Below are positions 1 to 57,416 of a stretch of DNA of 64,000 bases, one piece after another. The translations under genes and the position numbers were made by a program. Where the stretch lies: contig DATLTS010000041.1 in the NCBI GenBank assembly GCA_035533475.1, forward strand, positions 65,070-129,069, given 5' to 3'. The first letter of the stretch is position 1; every line of letters starts with the position of its first letter. The notes under the pieces were generated by a model. The model was not told the DNA's origin. It was given only the letters and a program-made list of their open reading frames with translations, and searched no databases. Source of the stretch: Mycobacteriales bacterium. Its GTDB lineage: Bacteria > Actinomycetota > Actinomycetes > DATLTS01.

Positions 1-760
1 CCCGGCTGCGGGCCGCGGCCGGGTCGTGCACCGGATTCCAGATCGACGGGGCCGGCACGATCCCGGCGAGTACCGCCGCCCGGGCGAGGGCGAGCACCGG
101 ACTTCGGCTGTGCGTGACCGGGTCTAGGTCCAGGTCGCTGATCTTCACCCCGAAGTAGAAGGTGCTCGCCGCCTGCACCCCGTAGGTGCCGTTGCCGAGA
201 TACAGCGTGTTGAGGTAGCGGGTGAGGATCTCGTCCTTCGAGAAATGCTGTTCGATGCGGATCGCGAGGGCGGCCTCGCGGAGCTTGCGCAGCACGGTCC
301 GCTGGCTGCCGGTATAGACGTTCTTCACGTACTGCTGGGTGATGGTCGAGCCACCCTGCGTGGGGGAACCGGTGAGGTCCTTCCAGAGGGCCCGGGCCAA
401 TGCCAACGGGTCGATCCCCGCATTCTGGTAGAAGCGCGAGTCCTCCGCCGCGACGATCGCTTCCTTCATGACCTGCGGAATCTGACTGCTGGTGACCCGT
501 TGTTGGATCTCCGGGGAGCGGATGGTCGCGAAGGTACGGCCATGCTCGTCGACGAGCACAGCCGACTTGGGAGGAACGGTGTCGGCGAAGGTCACCGGGG
601 CCACGAGCAAGCCGGTCACGAACGAGACGAGGCCGATCCCGAGGGCGGCCACCAGCCAGAACGCCACCAGCCGGCGGCGGCGGCGGGCCCGCAAAGCACG
701 GCGCCGGCGCAGGGCCCCGGCCACGACGGAGGCCCGCGCCGCCGGACGGGTGGGCGTCAC
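1..760 (-). CDS. Class A penicillin-binding protein (glycosyltransferase part), 3' end outside window
   Basis: Peptidoglycan glycan-strand polymerase, normally also a transpeptidase, anchored in the cytoplasmic membrane. The translation starts at a GTG at 760, with an in-frame stop four codons upstream, so no earlier start is possible. It has a basic N-terminus, one membrane segment at about residues 28-55, then the family 51 glycosyltransferase hallmarks: AAEDSRFY with the catalytic Glu, QGGSTITQQYVKN, and RKLREAALAIRIE followed by YLNTLYLGNGTYGVQ. The window edge cuts the gene at about residue 253, so the transpeptidase domain cannot be checked; a monofunctional enzyme remains possible. It is divergent from bldN. 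Confidence 0.9.
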   Translation of the reverse strand, partial: MTPTRPAARASVVAGALRRRRALRARRRRRLVAFWLVAALGIGLVSFVTGLLVAPVTFADTVPPKSAVLVDEHGRTFATIRSPEIQQRVTSSQIPQVMKEAIVAAEDSRFYQNAGIDPLALARALWKDLTGSPTQGGSTITQQYVKNVYTGSQRTVLRKLREAALAIRIEQHFSKDEILTRYLNTLYLGNGTYGVQAASTFYFGVKISDLDLDPVTHSRSPVLALARAAVLAGIVPAPSIWNPVHDPAAARSR

Positions 761-858
761 GGCCCGAGCCTAAACGGCGTACGGCGGCCCCCACGGATCC
801 GGCAGCCGGGATGTTCCGGGGCATACCCGACACAGACGGCACGAATCCGGCGGAGCTC

Positions 859-888
859 GTGACCCGAAAGCCCCTCGGCGCCTAGAAT
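859..888 (+). promoter_or_regulatory. Candidate housekeeping-type promoter of bldN
   Basis: A GTGACC -35-like hexamer (859-864) and a TAGAAT -10 (883-888) are separated by 18 nt and lie 55 nt before the bldN start. The -10 is close to consensus and the -35 is partial. The divergent 761-943 gap shows no convincing BldD-type box. Confidence 0.35.
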
Positions 889-943
889 CGATCATCGGGT
901 GCCCACCGCCGCAAGCTCATGACCTGCACGATCGGAGCCGAGA

Positions 944-1702
944 ATGGTCGGCCGCCCGCTCGCCGCACTCGCCGGACCCGGTGCGCCCGGCTTCGACCGC
1001 CTCGGACTCGCGGCCGGCTTCGACCGCCTCCGGCTCGCCTTGTCCGTCACCGGGGGCGCACCGATCCCGGACACCGGGGGCTATCAGCTGCCCCGGCCGC
1101 GGGCCTCGGCCCCCGCCGGCGGCCCGGACCCGTCCCCGCCGGAGGGCGAGCAGGCCGAGGTCATGGGGGCGGTGGCCCGGGCACAGAACGGCGACGCGGC
1201 GGCCTTCGGGGAGCTTTACGACCGGTACGTGGATCAGGTCTACCGCTACGTCTACTACCGGGTCGGGGCGGCCGCACTGGCCGAAGACCTGACCAGCGAC
1301 ACCTTTCTGCGAGCGCTCCGGCGGATTGGCAGCTTTCGGTGGCAAGGCCGGGACTTCGGCGCCTGGCTGGTCACCATCGCACGCAATCTGATCGCCGACC
1401 ACTTCAAGTCCAGCCGATACCGGATGGAACTGAGCAGTGCCGACCTCATCGAGTCCGGCGCGGAACAAGCCGCCGCCGGCCCCGAGGGCGCCGTGCTCGA
1501 GGCCCTGACAAACGCCACCCTGCTCGAAGCGGTGAAACGGCTCAATCCCGAGCAGCAGGAGTGCGTCGCGCTGCGCTTCCTCCAAGGCATGTCGGTCGCG
1601 GAGACAGCGCTCGCCATGGGGAAGAACGAAGGCGCGATCAAGGCGCTCCAGTACCGGGCGGTGCGTAGCCTGGCGCGGTTGCTGCCCTCGGAGCCCTGGT
1701 GA
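944..1702 (+). CDS. bldN: ECF sigma factor, BldN ortholog
   Basis: RNA polymerase sigma factor of the BldN group, which in Streptomyces drives late differentiation genes. The ATG at 944 has a GGAG at 934-937. The product has 252 residues: an Ala/Pro-rich N-terminal extension to about residue 73, then sigma region 2 (about 76-160, with YRYVYYRVG, DFGAWLVTIARNLIADHFK) and region 4 (about 190-245, with LNPEQQECVALRFLQGMS and MGKNEGAIKALQYRAVR). Both regions match Streptomyces BldN nearly word for word as I recall it, and BldN also carries an N-terminal pro-sequence of this size. The extension includes a 27-bp tandem duplication. The next gene is the likely anti-sigma factor, and matching BldN promoter boxes follow at 1773 and 3018. 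Proteolytic processing is inferred, not seen. Confidence 0.9.
   Translation: MVGRPLAALAGPGAPGFDRLGLAAGFDRLRLALSVTGGAPIPDTGGYQLPRPRASAPAGGPDPSPPEGEQAEVMGAVARAQNGDAAAFGELYDRYVDQVYRYVYYRVGAAALAEDLTSDTFLRALRRIGSFRWQGRDFGAWLVTIARNLIADHFKSSRYRMELSSADLIESGAEQAAAGPEGAVLEALTNATLLEAVKRLNPEQQECVALRFLQGMSVAETALAMGKNEGAIKALQYRAVRSLARLLPSEPW
987..1030 (+). repeat. 27-bp tandem duplication inside the bldN pro-region
   Basis: A 17-bp identical block (987-1003 and 1014-1030) recurs with a 27-bp period and encodes FDRLGLAAG followed by FDRLRLALS. It lies wholly in the non-conserved N-terminal extension of the sigma factor, so copy number could vary without touching the sigma domains. Confidence 0.6.
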
Positions 1703-1772
1703 GCCGCGTCCCGCCTCGCCTGGTCATCGTGGGGGGCCGGATAGCCCGGATGGGTCATTTCGGGCATAGACC

Positions 1773-1801
1773 CGTAACCCGGTCGGGAGGCCCCTCGTTG
1801 A
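1773..1801 (+). promoter_or_regulatory. Sigma-BldN promoter upstream of rsbN
   Basis: CGTAAC (1773-1778), 17 nt, CGTTGA (1796-1801). These are the exact -35 and -10 hexamers reported for Streptomyces sigma-BldN (CGTAAC-N16-CGTTGA), with one extra spacer base. The -10 ends 52 nt before the rsbN ATG. In S. venezuelae rsbN is itself a sigma-BldN target, so this fits an autoregulatory sigma/anti-sigma loop. Confidence 0.8.
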
Positions 1802-1853
1802 AGACGATGAGGCCGCCGGTCGGACCGGCGCGAACGAAGGGAGCGTGGCCGCC

Positions 1854-2969
1854 ATGAGCGTGCTGCCCACCCGTCGGCGCGCCGATGCGTTCGACCGCCG
1901 GCTGCTCGGCGGCACCCCCTCGTCCGACCCGGCGCTGGCTGCGATGGCCACGCTCGCCGGCCGCCTCCAGGCGCTGCCGATCGGACCCGCTCCGGACTTC
2001 CGGGCAGCGCTCCGCCAGCGCGTGGTCGCAGTCGCGGCGGTCCAACCCGGGCCGGCCGCCGTTCCGCTGCGGGCCCGAACCGCGGAATACCTCGGGGGCT
2101 GGCGCAGCCAGCGCCGGATCGCCGTCGTGGCCGGAGGGGTCGCCGCTGCGGTCGTCATCGCCGGGGTCGGGGTCTCGGCGAGTCGGTCCCTGCCGGGAGA
2201 CCCCTTCTACCGGCTCAAGCAGGCGAGCGAGGCGATCCAGCTCGACCTCGCCCACGGCGGCTTGGCGAAGGGCCGGCTCGAACTCGAATTCGCCCGGACC
2301 CGGATGCACGAGGTGCGCCAGCTGACCGGCGTGGATACGGCGCTCGCGACCGGCCGGCCGGGGGTGGCCTCGGCCGCGGACATCGCCTTCGGTGGCAGCC
2401 GATCCGAGCGGATCCGTTCGGCCTTCGGGGCCATGGATTCCGAGACCCTCGCCGGTAGCCGCTATCTGACGGGTTACTTCCAGCAGACCGGCGAACGCGC
2501 CGCCCTCAACGCGCTGCGGAGCTTCGCCGTCCGCCAACACCGCGATCTCGAGTCGGTGCTCCCGCAGCTGCCCGCGGATGCCCGCCCCGCGGCGGATGCC
2601 GCGCTCGCAATCGTCGCGGAGGTGAGCAGTCGGGCCGGCACTCTCCTAGAGGTCGGTGCCTGCACGGCCGCGTGCACGCCGATCGCCGGGCCGCAGGCGG
2701 CTCCCAGCCCGCTGCCCAGCGACCGGCTCGGGGTGCTGCCGTGCAGCTGCGCCAACGCCAGCGCCCAACCCACGGCGGGCCCGTCCCCCTCCGCCAGCCC
2801 TGAACCGACAACCACGCCGACGCCGACGCCGTCCGGCTCCGCGTCTCCGACGCCCTCACCCACGCCGAGTCCTTCCTCGAGCCTGCCGATCCCATTGCCC
2901 ACCCTGCCCACCCCGCTGCCGACGCTCCCGCTGCCGATACCCACCCCGTCGCTGCCGGTACCCGGGTAA
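1854..2969 (+). CDS. rsbN: Probable anti-sigma-BldN factor, DUF5667 membrane protein
   Basis: Likely single-pass membrane anti-sigma factor for the upstream BldN. I chose the ATG at 1854 because GAAGGGAG (1836-1843) is 10 nt upstream; an in-frame GTG at 1845 is only one base from it. A cytoplasmic N-terminus of about 85 residues is followed by one membrane segment (about residues 88-110), then the DUF5667 part beginning with LPGDPFYRLKQASEAI, and a C-terminal tail of some 80 residues rich in Pro, Ser and Thr that should cross the cell wall. There is no zinc-finger anti-sigma motif, as expected for the RsbN type. Assignment rests on position next to bldN, topology and the sigma-BldN promoter before it. 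Confidence 0.75.
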   Translation: MSVLPTRRRADAFDRRLLGGTPSSDPALAAMATLAGRLQALPIGPAPDFRAALRQRVVAVAAVQPGPAAVPLRARTAEYLGGWRSQRRIAVVAGGVAAAVVIAGVGVSASRSLPGDPFYRLKQASEAIQLDLAHGGLAKGRLELEFARTRMHEVRQLTGVDTALATGRPGVASAADIAFGGSRSERIRSAFGAMDSETLAGSRYLTGYFQQTGERAALNALRSFAVRQHRDLESVLPQLPADARPAADAALAIVAEVSSRAGTLLEVGACTAACTPIAGPQAAPSPLPSDRLGVLPCSCANASAQPTAGPSPSASPEPTTTPTPTPSGSASPTPSPTPSPSSSLPIPLPTLPTPLPTLPLPIPTPSLPVPG

Positions 2970-3017
2970 GCGCACGCCGGTCGCCCGCCGCACCGGCAAA
3001 CCGGTTCGCGAAAACTG

Positions 3018-3045
3018 CGTAACCTTCCGGCGCCACGGTCGTTGA
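3018..3045 (+). promoter_or_regulatory. Sigma-BldN promoter upstream of the LPHTG surface protein
   Basis: CGTAAC (3018-3023), exactly 16 nt, CGTTGA (3040-3045): a perfect match to the published sigma-BldN consensus including spacing. Transcription would start near 3052, giving a 5' UTR of about 155 nt before the ATG at 3207. An inverted repeat overlaps the -10 and the predicted start site. Confidence 0.85.
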
Positions 3046-3090
3046 ACCGCTCGAACGAACTCCTGCCCCCGCCCGCGGAGTGAGCGGTTC
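3044..3090. repeat. Inverted repeat across the sigma-BldN -10 and start site
   Basis: GAACCGCTC (3044-3052) pairs with GAGCGGTTC (3082-3090), and ACTCC (3059-3063) pairs with GGAGT (3077-3081). The left arm begins inside the -10 element and ends at the predicted transcription start, so most of it would not be in the RNA. A DNA operator for a second regulator is therefore more likely than an RNA hairpin. Confidence 0.45.
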
Positions 3091-3206
3091 GTCCGAAATG
3101 CACGGTTCTCGGGGTGGATTCGTCATCGCAATATGCCGATACATCCCAACAAAGTCCCCGCCGTCGGTAGCATCGCGCCACCGCCCAACTCGGAGGTATC
3201 GGATCA

Positions 3207-4685
3207 ATGGCACAAAACCTGCGGCGTAGGGGTGCGGCAGCAGCCGCGCTCACGGTCGCCAGCGGCACGCTCCTGGCCACGGTCGCGGTAGCCGCCCCGG
3301 CTGGAGCGGCGACCAACGTCGCGCCCGCGTTCTACTCCGGCGCGACCCAGGGCAACGTCCTCGGCGTCACCCTCAACCTTCCGACCGCGCTGCCCGGCCT
3401 GCCGAACCCGGCGGCCCTGGGCCTGATCAGCGCCACCGGCACCGCCGTGCACAACACGCTCAGTGCCGCCGTGACCAACACGGCAAGCTCGTTCGCCGGG
3501 CTGGCCTCAGGCAGCCTGGTCCAGTCCGGCCCGCTCGGCATGCTCAACCGGTCCGCCTCGGCGACGACCAGCGGGGCGCGCGACGCGACCAGCAGCCTGG
3601 GCACGATCCCCAGCAACGTTCTGGTCAGTGGCTCGCTCGGCAGCCTGGCCGCGCATGTCCTGAGCGCCCTCCCGAGCAGCGTCTCCACCGCGAACCTGGC
3701 CAACCTCAGCGCGGGCCGGCTTCGCGACATCCTCGGCTCGTCCCTGGTCAACCAGATCACCAGCGTCTACAACTCGATCGAGTCCAACGCCCAGTCGACC
3801 GTGAGTTCCGCGGTCAGCACCATCGACTCGGTGCTGGGCCCGCTCGCGAGCCAGGACCCGACCGGCGCGGCCGCGCTGCTGGAGTCGCAGGTCAACAGCC
3901 TGCCGAGCCAGCTCGACTGCTCGAAGAACACGGCCTGCCTGCTCAACACCCTGCTCGACAACAACCTGCTCTCCTTCGACGCACTCGACGCCCACCAGGG
4001 GATCGTTCAGGTCGCCGACGGCGTTCAGTCGACGGCCCACGCCGGGTTGCTCGGGGTCAACGTGCTCGGTGGCCTGGTATCGGTCAACGGCTTCACCAGC
4101 GACGCGACCGCGTTCGCCGACGGCCGGCCCGGACACGCCACCGCCGCGGTCAACCCGGTCGTCGCCACCGCGAAGGTCGGAAAGCTGCAGATCACGCTGG
4201 GCAACGGCGCTACCGGAACCATCCTCGGGATCAACGTGGGTGGCCTCACCGGCCAGACCGTCACGCAGATCAACTCGGCGCTCACCACCGTGGTCAACAC
4301 GCTGAACAGCGTGCTCAACACGCTGGGCGTCTCGGTCTCCGCCACCAAGGGCACGACCAGCGTCAACCCGGACGGCAGTTCGGCGACTGCGACCGGTGGC
4401 GTGCTCACCATCGACGTCTCGGCGCCGTCACTGCCCACAGGTGGGGCGGCCACGACGGCCGGGGCGAACTCCTCCTCCGCCGCGCCGCTCGTGCAGATCC
4501 AGCTCGGTGGCGCCTCGGCGGCCGCTCGGGCCCGGCAGGCCGTGCTGGTCCCCAACAAGGTGATCACCCCGGCCACGACGGCGCTCCCGCACACCGGGGC
4601 GAACCTGCCGTTGACTGCGGGTATCGGCATGGTGCTGCTCGGGGCTGCTGCCCTGGTGCGTCGCCGGCTGATGAGCAACGGCTGA
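3207..4685 (+). CDS. Secreted cell-wall-anchored protein with LPHTG sorting signal
   Basis: Surface protein of unknown function, 492 residues. The ATG follows TCGGAGG at 3190-3196. Residues 1-35 form a signal peptide (basic n-region, hydrophobic core, AGAA cleavage site). The mature part is rich in Ala, Ser, Asn, Thr, Leu and Val with few charged residues, contains two pairs of Cys-containing short stretches near residues 232-245 (DCSKNTACLL), and shows repeated NTLNSVLNTL-like and TNTASS-like segments. The C-terminus is a classic sortase signal: LPHTG at 460-464, a hydrophobic segment, and an RRR tail. It is expressed from a perfect sigma-BldN promoter and ends in a strong terminator, so it forms its own transcription unit. 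In Streptomyces that sigma controls chaplins and rodlins; no chaplin domain is visible here. A coat or adhesion role is inference. Confidence 0.85.
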   Translation: MAQNLRRRGAAAAALTVASGTLLATVAVAAPAGAATNVAPAFYSGATQGNVLGVTLNLPTALPGLPNPAALGLISATGTAVHNTLSAAVTNTASSFAGLASGSLVQSGPLGMLNRSASATTSGARDATSSLGTIPSNVLVSGSLGSLAAHVLSALPSSVSTANLANLSAGRLRDILGSSLVNQITSVYNSIESNAQSTVSSAVSTIDSVLGPLASQDPTGAAALLESQVNSLPSQLDCSKNTACLLNTLLDNNLLSFDALDAHQGIVQVADGVQSTAHAGLLGVNVLGGLVSVNGFTSDATAFADGRPGHATAAVNPVVATAKVGKLQITLGNGATGTILGINVGGLTGQTVTQINSALTTVVNTLNSVLNTLGVSVSATKGTTSVNPDGSSATATGGVLTIDVSAPSLPTGGAATTAGANSSSAAPLVQIQLGGASAAARARQAVLVPNKVITPATTALPHTGANLPLTAGIGMVLLGAAALVRRRLMSNG

Positions 4686-4710
4686 ACGCTGCGCCGCTAA
4701 AGCGCGAAAC

Positions 4711-4743
4711 CGAAGCCCGGCCCTCCTCGAGGGCCGGGCTTCG
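4711..4743 (+). terminator. Strong hairpin terminator after the surface protein gene
   Basis: A 14-bp perfect stem (4711-4724 with 4730-4743) and a 5-nt loop, 25 nt past the stop codon. There is no T-tract, as is usual for GC-rich actinobacterial terminators. Confidence 0.8.
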
Positions 4744-4768
4744 GCGTGTTCGCGGGTAGATTGCCGCC

Positions 4769-5848
4769 GTGGCCCGCCGGAGCAGACCCGACACCCGGGC
4801 CGTGCTCGCCGGCGCGGCTTCCGCGGCGGTCGCCGAGGTGGAGGCCAGCCTGACGGTGCCGCTGGACTCGTCGGCGGCCGCATTCTTCGACGTCGACAAC
4901 ACGATGATGATGGGCGCCTCCATTTATCACTTCGCCCGGGGTCTCGCCGCACGGCACTTCTTCACCTGGCGGGACCTGGCGAAATTCGGCTGGCAGCAAC
5001 TGGCGTTCCGACTGGTTGGCCGGGAGCAGCTCGAGCACATGGCCGAAGCGAAGGAAGCCGCGCTGGCGTTCGTCGCGGGCCATCGGGTGGACGAGGTGGT
5101 GGAGCTAGGCGAGGAGATCTACGACGAGCTGATGGCCGATCGGATCTGGTCCGGTTCCCGGGCACTCGCCCAGATGCATCTCGACGCCGGCCAGCGGGTG
5201 TGGCTGGTCACGGCTGCGCCGATGGAGCTGGCCGGGCTGATCGCGCGCCGACTCGGGCTTACCGGAGCGCTCGGGACGGTCGCCGAGTCCCGGGGCGGCG
5301 TGTACACGGGGGCCCTGGTCGGCGAGCCGCTGCATGGGCCGGCCAAGGCCGAGGCGATCCGGGCGCTGGCCGCCCGGGAGGGTCTCGACCTCGGGCGATG
5401 TGCGGCGTACAGCGACTCGGCCAACGACCTGCCGATGCTCACGGCGGTTGGGCACCCGGTCGCCGTGAACCCGGATGGCGAGCTCAGGCGGGTGGCCCGG
5501 GAGCGCGGATGGGAGGTCCGCGACTTCAGAACCGGACGCAAGGCCGCCCGGGTCGGGCTCCCAGCCCTGGCCGGCGCCGCCGGGATCGCCGCGGGGATCG
5601 CGGTCGGCCTCTCCTTCCGCCGGCGGTTCCGCTCGCGGAGCCGCTCCAGCAGCCTGCCCAGCCGGTCCAGCCGCCGGCGAGTGTGCAATTTCCGACAGGA
5701 GGTCACGCTCACGGACGGGTCCGGGGTGTCGGAAATTGCACACTCGGTGGTGCGGGGGGTGGGGGGTCGGGTCAGAAGAAGACCGAACGGCGCTGCATTA
5801 GCAGCTTGTACAGGGTCTGCTGGATCGTCTCGCGCACCTGGTCGGTGA
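4769..5848 (+). CDS. HAD-IB family phosphatase (SerB1-like) with odd C-terminus
   Basis: Haloacid-dehalogenase phosphohydrolase, related to phosphoserine-phosphatase-like SerB1 of mycobacteria. The GTG start at 4769 is preceded by TAGATT and 6 nt, suggesting a leaderless mRNA. Motif I is FFDVDNT (Asp41, Asp43), motif II is VTAAP, and motif IV is [11 protein letters not shown] with the metal-binding acidic pair. A short hydrophobic stretch near residues 268-285 precedes an Arg/Ser-rich tail. The reading frame then runs through a 67-bp inverted repeat (5679-5745) and overlaps the convergent acyltransferase gene by 77 bp. The last 55 or so residues look unlike a HAD tail and may be acquired. It accompanies the PlsC/SDR genes, as in the Rv0501-Rv0505c neighbourhood. 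Confidence 0.85.
5679..5745. repeat. 19-bp perfect inverted repeat at the HAD/acyltransferase junction
   Basis: Arms at 5679-5697 and 5727-5745 are perfect reverse complements (left arm begins GAGTGTGCAATTT), separated by 29 nt. The arms are noticeably more AT-rich than the surroundings. The element lies inside the 3' end of the HAD reading frame and just past the convergent acyltransferase stop. It could be a bidirectional terminator, but the loop is long; a palindromic mobile element is the alternative. No second copy was seen in this window. Confidence 0.7.
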
Positions 5849-55802: not shown

Positions 55803-57416
55803 TCAGGAGCACACGGTGCCCGGACGGGGCAACTGCCGCGCGATGAGATATGCGTCGACATAGCCGTCGATGCAGCCGCTGCGTAGGTAGGCCGTGTGCC
55901 CGTCGCTGTTGTAGCTCAACAGTGTCGTGCGCAGTTGCCGGGCCAACGCCTGGGCCCACTGGTAGGGCGTCGCCGGATCGCGGGTGGTCCCGACGACCAG
56001 GATCGGCGGAGCGCCACCGGGCGAGATCGCGTGCGGCGTCTCTGCTGGTGGCACCGGCCAGTAGGCGCAGGCGAGGCCACCCCACTCGATGGCGGCGCCA
56101 AAGTACGGAGCGATCCGCTCGTTCCTAGCCGCCGCCCGCTCGTAGGTCGTCAGGTCGGTCGGTGACGGTCGATCGACGCAGTTGATCGCGGTGTTCGATT
56201 CGAGTTCGTTGGTGTAGGTGCCATTCGGGTTGCGTCCGACAAAGGCATCAGACAGTGCGAGGATCGGCGCGCCGTTCCCCCGCTCCGCAGCCGCGAGCGC
56301 TCGCTCGAGCGCGGGCCATCCGTAGGTGGGGTCGTAAAGAGTGAACGCGAGGCCGCTGAAGAACTCACCGGCGCCTGCGGTCCGGCCGCCACCCCCGGGC
56401 AGCGGATGATCGTCCACCGCACGGGTCAGGCGGTTGAGCTCCGCCATTGCGGCGGACACGCTCGAGCCCAGGGGACAGTTCGCCCCTTGCACACAGAACG
56501 CGAGAAAGTCGTCGAGATCCGTCTGGAACCCCTCGGCCTGAACCTCGTTGAGCTGGTCGACGGTAAGGGACGGGTCGAGTGCTCCGTCGAGAACGAGCGC
56601 CCGGATGTGGCTGGGGAAGAGCTGCACATATTTGGCACCCAGATAGGTCCCGTAGGAGAACCCCAGGTAGGTGAGCTTGGCATCGCCCACCGCCGCTCGG
56701 AGCACGTCCATGTCGCGGGCCTCGTCGAGCGTGCTCACGTGGGCGAGCAGTGCTCCACTTTCGTGCTCACAACCACCGGCGAACAGCTTCGCCAGGGTCA
56801 CGAGGTTCGACAACTCGCCAGGTGCATCCGGAACCGGATCGGCCGCGACCTCCTCGTCCAGCGCGTGCGGGGACAGGCAGCGTACGGGAGTGGACTGGCC
56901 GACCCCACGGGGGTCGAAGCCAACGATGTCGAAACGGTCCCGGATAGCGGCCGGAAAGCTCTGTGCCGCGTCGAGCACGAACTGGACACCTGAGGCACCG
57001 GGGCCCCCGGGGTTGACGAGTAACGACCCGATCCGACCCGCAGTGTCGCGTGCGCGCAACCGAACCGCGGCCACCGTGATCGTCTGGCCACCGGGCTGGC
57101 GGTAATCGAGCGGAACGCGCAACGTGGCGCACTGGAACCCGTTGTTGCAACTGGACCAGGACAGCCGTTGGGCATAAAAGGCCCGGAGGGCGGCTGCCGG
57201 ACCGGTGGCGCTGGGGGCGGCCAGCGCCGACCCGGTAGCGCTGACCGCGGGAGTCGCGGTGCCCCGAGCCGGGCCGTGCGCCGGGCTACTGCAGGCGGCA
57301 GCGGCGGTGACGAGGCAGGCCAGTACTGCGGCTAGGCGTCTGCGGATGTCTGCTCCTCTTCCGCGCGTACGGTTCCATCCCGGCGAGAGGTCTCGTAATC
57401 CTGCCGGGAGCCGCAA
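55803..57416 (-). CDS. Secreted alpha/beta hydrolase, tripeptidyl aminopeptidase (S33) type
   Basis: Exported serine peptidase, 537 residues. The N-terminus has a long basic n-region, a hydrophobic core and LVTAAAAC, a possible lipobox whose Cys would be lipidated. The hydrolase domain has LLVNPGGPGASGVQF (oxyanion), GFDPRGVGQSTPVRC, the nucleophile elbow LGFSYGTYLGAKY, and C-terminal VVGTTRDPATPYQWA (Asp) and SDGHTAYLRSGC (His). The only in-frame start is TTG 57416, which overlaps ricT by 85 bp; GAAAG precedes it. Family members release tripeptides outside the cell. Confidence 0.85.
   Translation of the reverse strand: MRLPAGLRDLSPGWNRTRGRGADIRRRLAAVLACLVTAAAACSSPAHGPARGTATPAVSATGSALAAPSATGPAAALRAFYAQRLSWSSCNNGFQCATLRVPLDYRQPGGQTITVAAVRLRARDTAGRIGSLLVNPGGPGASGVQFVLDAAQSFPAAIRDRFDIVGFDPRGVGQSTPVRCLSPHALDEEVAADPVPDAPGELSNLVTLAKLFAGGCEHESGALLAHVSTLDEARDMDVLRAAVGDAKLTYLGFSYGTYLGAKYVQLFPSHIRALVLDGALDPSLTVDQLNEVQAEGFQTDLDDFLAFCVQGANCPLGSSVSAAMAELNRLTRAVDDHPLPGGGGRTAGAGEFFSGLAFTLYDPTYGWPALERALAAAERGNGAPILALSDAFVGRNPNGTYTNELESNTAINCVDRPSPTDLTTYERAAARNERIAPYFGAAIEWGGLACAYWPVPPAETPHAISPGGAPPILVVGTTRDPATPYQWAQALARQLRTTLLSYNSDGHTAYLRSGCIDGYVDAYLIARQLPRPGTVCS

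Follow-up and report, generated by a model that had tools for sequence, protein, structure and literature searches.

The bldN locus

The window, i.e., the whole stretch of 64,000 nucleotides that was analysed (G000:C41:65070-129069), belongs to a genome of 3.27 Mb (68 contigs, 70% G+C) that is not from Streptomyces, as an earlier reading of the sequence alone (the sequence-only reading) had stated. It contains a gene for the sigma factor BldN with the gene for the anti-sigma factor RsbN adjoining it directly downstream, followed by the genes for a predicted surface protein and for a HAD-IB family hydrolase (Table 1).

Table 1. Genes and sequence features around bldN, in window positions.
Feature	Position	Strand	Basis
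bldN, BldN-family ECF sigma factor	944..1702	+	TIGR02952, PF04542/PF08281, PDB 6dxo_A
Predicted BldN-type promoter of rsbN	1773..1801	+	-35 CGTAAC 1773-1778, spacer 17, -10 CGTTGA 1796-1801
rsbN, membrane-anchored anti-sigma factor	1854..2969	+	PF18915, BLASTP, profile-profile comparison, TM segment
Predicted BldN-type promoter of the surface gene	3018..3045	+	-35 CGTAAC 3018-3023, spacer 16, -10 CGTTGA 3040-3045
Predicted secreted, sortase-anchored surface protein, 492 aa	3207..4685	+	TIGR01167, alignment A2
LPHTG sortase motif, residues 460-464	4584..4598	+	Sequence; a hydrophobic helix and an RRR tail come after it
HAD-IB family hydrolase	4769..5848	+	TIGR01490, synteny table

The assignment of the sigma factor to BldN, already made from its likeness to the Streptomyces protein, is borne out by TIGR02952 (212.4 bits, cut-off 206.45), and its closest solved structure is the RsbN-sigmaBldN complex (6dxo_A, E 4.7e-66). 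It is the single BldN of the genome at E<=1e-30, and comparison with Streptomyces shows strong conservation of its regions 2 and 4. An N-terminal extension of ca. 76 aa precedes region 2 (944-1170) and includes a short FDRLRLAL-like stretch that resembles the GLAALR of relatives. Streptomyces BldN is a proprotein, and its N-terminal extension is removed by proteolysis.

The neighbour, which had been described only as an anti-sigma gene, can be named more precisely, since homology to crystallised Streptomyces RsbN (6dxo_D, the protein used for comparison), a DUF5667 domain and a transmembrane helix identify its product as RsbN (class ASDIII). It is composed of an N-terminal region with RRAxxF and LRxRLVA motifs, the helix (residues 89-107, mean hydropathy 2.5), DUF5667 (PF18915, 35.3 bits vs. 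a gathering score of 27) and a proline-rich tail. BLASTP aligned it with Streptomyces RsbN over the membrane-proximal region (8e-10), and a profile-profile comparison matched the RRAxxF..LRxRLVA stretch to the sigma-binding region of that protein (94.7% probability, E 6e-8). Such a protein would sequester and inhibit BldN at the membrane. Its most likely start codon is the ATG at 1854 rather than the alternative GTG at 1845, because a Shine-Dalgarno sequence (AAGGGAG) lies just upstream, and transcription is expected to start at ca. 1807-1809.

The surface protein is built of a signal peptide (positive by a crude test), an extracellular part of ca. 400 residues with two beta-rich modules and long helices between them, and the LPHTG C-terminal sorting signal (TIGR01167, 17.4 bits vs. 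a cut-off of 15.9), in which T463, G464 and R485-R487 are invariant across alignment A2 (13 orthologues). Neither the chaplin domain PF03777 nor any other Pfam family matched it. It may be a diverged member of the choice-of-anchor P family of NCBIfam (NF040603), because four of the 13 orthologues match (best E 1.1e-6), although the window copy itself does not. The structure model has medium-low confidence (mean pLDDT 62), and its fold matches were discarded as spurious beta-barrels (TM-scores <=0.2 on a low-confidence model). Orthologues were found in 16 of 198 genomes (the present one included), nearly all in one group, in which the genomes that bear names are Frankiales, Frankiaceae or metagenome-assembled genomes of a similar kind. 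Wherever both are on the contig, rsbN and the HAD gene flank it. In Micromonospora and Salinispora it is absent and the HAD gene comes directly after rsbN; in Streptomyces the HAD gene is on the opposite side of bldN.

Two rare and conserved promoter-like sites

The sequence-only reading had pointed to two exact CGTAAC/CGTTGA pairs, one before the anti-sigma gene (spacer 17) and the other before the secreted-protein gene (spacer 16). Both are found exactly where it put them, and they are the sole exact matches in the window on both strands with spacers of 15 to 18. From base composition, 0.011 such pairs would be expected per 64 kb and 0.54 per genome (Poisson p ca. 6e-5 for two in one window), and 100 dinucleotide-preserving shuffles of the window gave none. 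The genome-wide frequency of the motif, a check named beforehand, was not that of chance either: pattern searches of the whole genome returned three exact pairs vs. none for the reversed control, each of the three lying no more than ca. 165 bp upstream of a gene of its own strand. Likewise, a weight matrix trained only on the rsbN sites of other genomes gave its two highest scores in the window to these two sites (25.2 and 23.4), the next score being 16.4. This third-best BldN-like site, at 56524-56551, reads TGGAACCCC-N-TCGTTGA. A BldN site that would point to autoregulation was not found before bldN (best matrix score -2.0), nor were BldD-like boxes (AGTGA-N0-18-TCAC) in positions 1-5000.

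One explanation would be that hexamer pairs of this kind simply arise by chance in a GC-rich genome and that their placement is luck. With one mismatch and a spacer of 16, the count for this genome is in fact near that of the control (9 vs. 6), that is, mostly background, and only the site before a SigH-type gene (see below) was retained from this set. The exact pairs do not follow this trend, two of the three being within 1.3 kb of bldN, and the conservation of the sites across families, to which we now turn, refutes the idea, so that we give it practically no weight. Separately, CGTCAC-type matches in this genome (L138, L140, L144, L145 and L146) were dropped, as no convincing gene start was seen downstream.

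The footprint of the rsbN site was drawn from loci in 198 genomes of the class, of which 81 have BldN, plus named genomes. Leaving out the genome studied here, 63 of the 66 distinct sequences that follow bldN carry a site with at least nine of the 12 consensus bases, with spacers of 17 (51 of the 63) or 16 (12 of the 63); the Streptomyces site reads CGTAACCC-N-TCGTTGT. An exception is genome G012 (locus L020), where the rsbN start is 2 nt past the end of bldN and the separate site is missing, and therefore sigma and anti-sigma factor are probably co-transcribed there. In Streptomyces venezuelae, rsbN is already known to have its own BldN-dependent promoter (PMC4255298), and what the rsbN site adds is a further case of known biology, now at the scale of the class.

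The surface-gene site is present in all 17 orthologous loci scored (16 of 16 if our own is not counted), often ca. 105 bp ahead of the start codon. When leaders are compared across families, the two hexamers alone stand out, and both the spacer and the rest of the leader diverge, leader conservation being limited to one family. We found no RNA element in these leaders, Rfam giving one sub-threshold chance match. Such footprints, together with the rarity of the motif in the genome, argue that both sites in the window are BldN-type promoters, as the sequence-only reading had proposed, and the bldN product would start transcription at promoters of the form CGTAAC-N16/17-CGTTG.

Further members of the predicted regulon

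A regulon pattern (CGTAACY-N14/15-TCGTT) was built from the rsbN and surface-gene sites. In 20 genomes it gave 67 matches vs. seven reversed-control matches. As a positive control, rsbN and bldM of the two Streptomyces genomes were both among the genes it picked up. In the genome under study, the genes behind it are rsbN, the surface protein gene, a sortase gene and a gene for a SigH-type sigma factor.

The sortase gene (C41:137130-137891) is outside the window, ca. 72 kb from bldN. Judged by its domain (PF04203, 89.1 vs. 26.6), the product is a sortase, and it appears closest to class E, whose model NF033747 is the best match yet stays below its cut-off (114.8 bits vs. 160). It would be expected to act on the LPHTG protein of the window. 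A BldN site precedes 12 of the 15 orthologues, whereas all 14 paralogues lack one (Fisher p 9e-6, relatedness ignored); here as in our other tests, p-values overstate the strength of the evidence because related loci are not independent. The -10 element of our own sortase gene, CGTTTC, is a weaker match. The exceptions are the three orthologues of family f11 (G010, G033 and G051), none of which has the BldN consensus. The sortase link is therefore not universal, and the f11 promoters suggest a change of sigma factor. The three loci (L149, L150 and L152) have a GGAACT-N-GCGTTGG-like sequence in the place of the BldN site, and the same genomes also carry two bldN paralogues.

It might then be asked whether the hexamer pairs in general are read mainly by another ECF sigma factor of similar specificity, BldN being a mere neighbour. 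Sigma-like candidates are numerous in the genome (43 at first look), ECF sigma factors share AAC-type -35 elements, and some sites in f11 belong to the GGAAC type. Against this, the same hexamers are found at rsbN and bldM, known BldN targets in Streptomyces, the site is found after bldN all through the class, and BldN itself has conserved recognition regions. We find this explanation very improbable.

The SigH-type gene (locus L139, also outside the window) is well supported as such (NF006148, 303.9 bits vs. a cut-off of 208). SigH genes stand behind a BldN-type site in seven genomes, a set that was found through the motif and so is not a fraction of anything. The third exact pair of the genome (L001, on another contig) is ca. 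40 nt upstream of an ATG that opens the gene for a 169-aa protein, whose N-terminus resembles a signal peptide; no BldN site was detected before its homologues (L178-L181), which are few and distant. Among the other genes behind sites, 17 of 26 look exported, vs. 10 of 74 control genes from the window (a crude test, p 1.3e-6). In relatives, other exported proteins behind BldN-type sites were seen at L184, L211, L212, L213, L215 and L218, two of them with LPFTG sorting signals, one cupredoxin-like and one weakly trypsin-like. The circuit of the sequence-only reading, in which the sigma factor drives its anti-sigma factor and a surface protein, thus keeps both of its targets and had been drawn too small, since it probably takes in the sortase, SigH and a second secreted protein as well.

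Chaplins and BldM

The Streptomyces targets, chaplins and bldM, would seem to lie outside the circuit. No chaplin (PF03777) was found in our genome, in 16 clade relatives or in G094, and the two Streptomyces controls gave 11 and six matches. BldM has orthologues in our genome and in 14 relatives (54-63% identity), our own (L248, G000:C48:68621-69220, 63%) being thus encoded in a chaplin-free genome. None of these 15 non-Streptomyces loci has a BldN site within 400 bp upstream of bldM, whereas an exact site is present in both Streptomyces; even over the whole retrieved bldM loci outside Streptomyces there was a single weak matrix match (13.0). At sampled chaplin genes of the two Streptomyces the sites were themselves weak or undetected by the matrix, so a missing match is not proof of missing control. 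In addition, bldM could be expressed without BldN, since Streptomyces has a second bldM promoter that does not depend on it (PMC4125116). A review from 2013 inferred from co-distribution that the step from BldN to BldM arose very early (PMC4255298).

There is a more conservative way to see all this, namely that we have before us an ordinary Streptomyces-like BldN-RsbN system, in which the surface protein and the sortase are local substitutes for chaplins within the same network logic. The sigma factor, the anti-sigma factor, the autoregulated rsbN promoter and a hydrophobic or wall-anchored output are all known in Streptomyces, where the long chaplins are likewise sortase substrates. Against it stand the 15 bldM genes without a BldN site, the site at the SigH gene and the presence of a dedicated sortase in the regulon, and we consider it unlikely.

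A conserved switch and its proposed output

Our preferred reading, which we hold with good though not complete confidence, is that a conserved self-limiting sigma-BldN/RsbN developmental switch has had its output rewired to a sortase-anchored surface coat. RsbN would hold BldN at the membrane until its release. Free sigma-BldN would then recognise CGTAAC-N16/17-CGTTG and transcribe rsbN, by which the membrane anti-sigma factor would be rebuilt and the response would limit itself. At the same time BldN would drive a surface module made of the adjacent LPXTG protein, the unlinked dedicated sortase and further exported proteins, and the sortase would join the LPHTG protein to peptidoglycan. By driving the SigH-type sigma factor, it may also pass the signal on and extend the cascade. 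The module would be made in a developmental or surface-growth phase, as an output of this lineage in place of the chaplins, rodlins and BldM of Streptomyces. Sequence comparison shows which genes and sites are present, how far they are conserved and what is missing, and from there we infer BldN binding, RsbN sequestration, the pairing of sortase and substrate and the developmental timing.

The system shares with that of S. venezuelae and S. coelicolor the sigma family, the adjacent membrane anti-sigma factor with DUF5667, the BldN-type promoter between the two genes, the promoter consensus and a surface-protein output. It differs in the chaplin-free genome, in a bldM without a BldN site and in what the output consists of, i.e., the LPXTG protein beside rsbN, the putative sortase and SigH. 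Another likeness is to the Streptomyces long chaplins ChpA-C with SrtE, also secreted, sortase-anchored and under BldN control (predicted for the window protein). However, the window protein is devoid of PF03777 and its sorting motif is LPHTG, not the LAxTG of Streptomyces long chaplins. Along similar lines, the filamentous actinomycete Actinoplanes missouriensis has SrtE and the wall proteins CwpA, CwpB and SspA, i.e., a class E sortase with hydrophobic, non-chaplin proteins of LPxTG type (PMC13251363), a likeness by type. There, substrate and sortase genes are at separate loci, transcription of srtE is basal during sporangium formation and no link to BldN was reported (PMC13251363).

The wider version of this reading is one on which we are evenly divided. 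It holds that in a little-studied Frankiales-like clade the ancestral BldN-RsbN switch builds a chaplin-free sortase-anchored layer and starts SigH, and that the step from BldN to BldM belongs to the Streptomyces side, the regulon having exchanged its targets while its self-limiting core stayed fixed. BldN is the commitment point to aerial growth in streptomycetes, and most knowledge of its regulon comes from Streptomyces. In the present case the regulon can be read from the DNA of a distant lineage, with the core (sigma factor, anti-sigma factor and self-limiting promoter) constant and the outputs different. The bldM genes that have no BldN site outside Streptomyces speak against a very early origin of the step from BldN to BldM. 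Besides, BldN becomes a candidate regulator for sortase-anchored coats made without chaplins, a kind of surface recently shown to matter in Actinoplanes.
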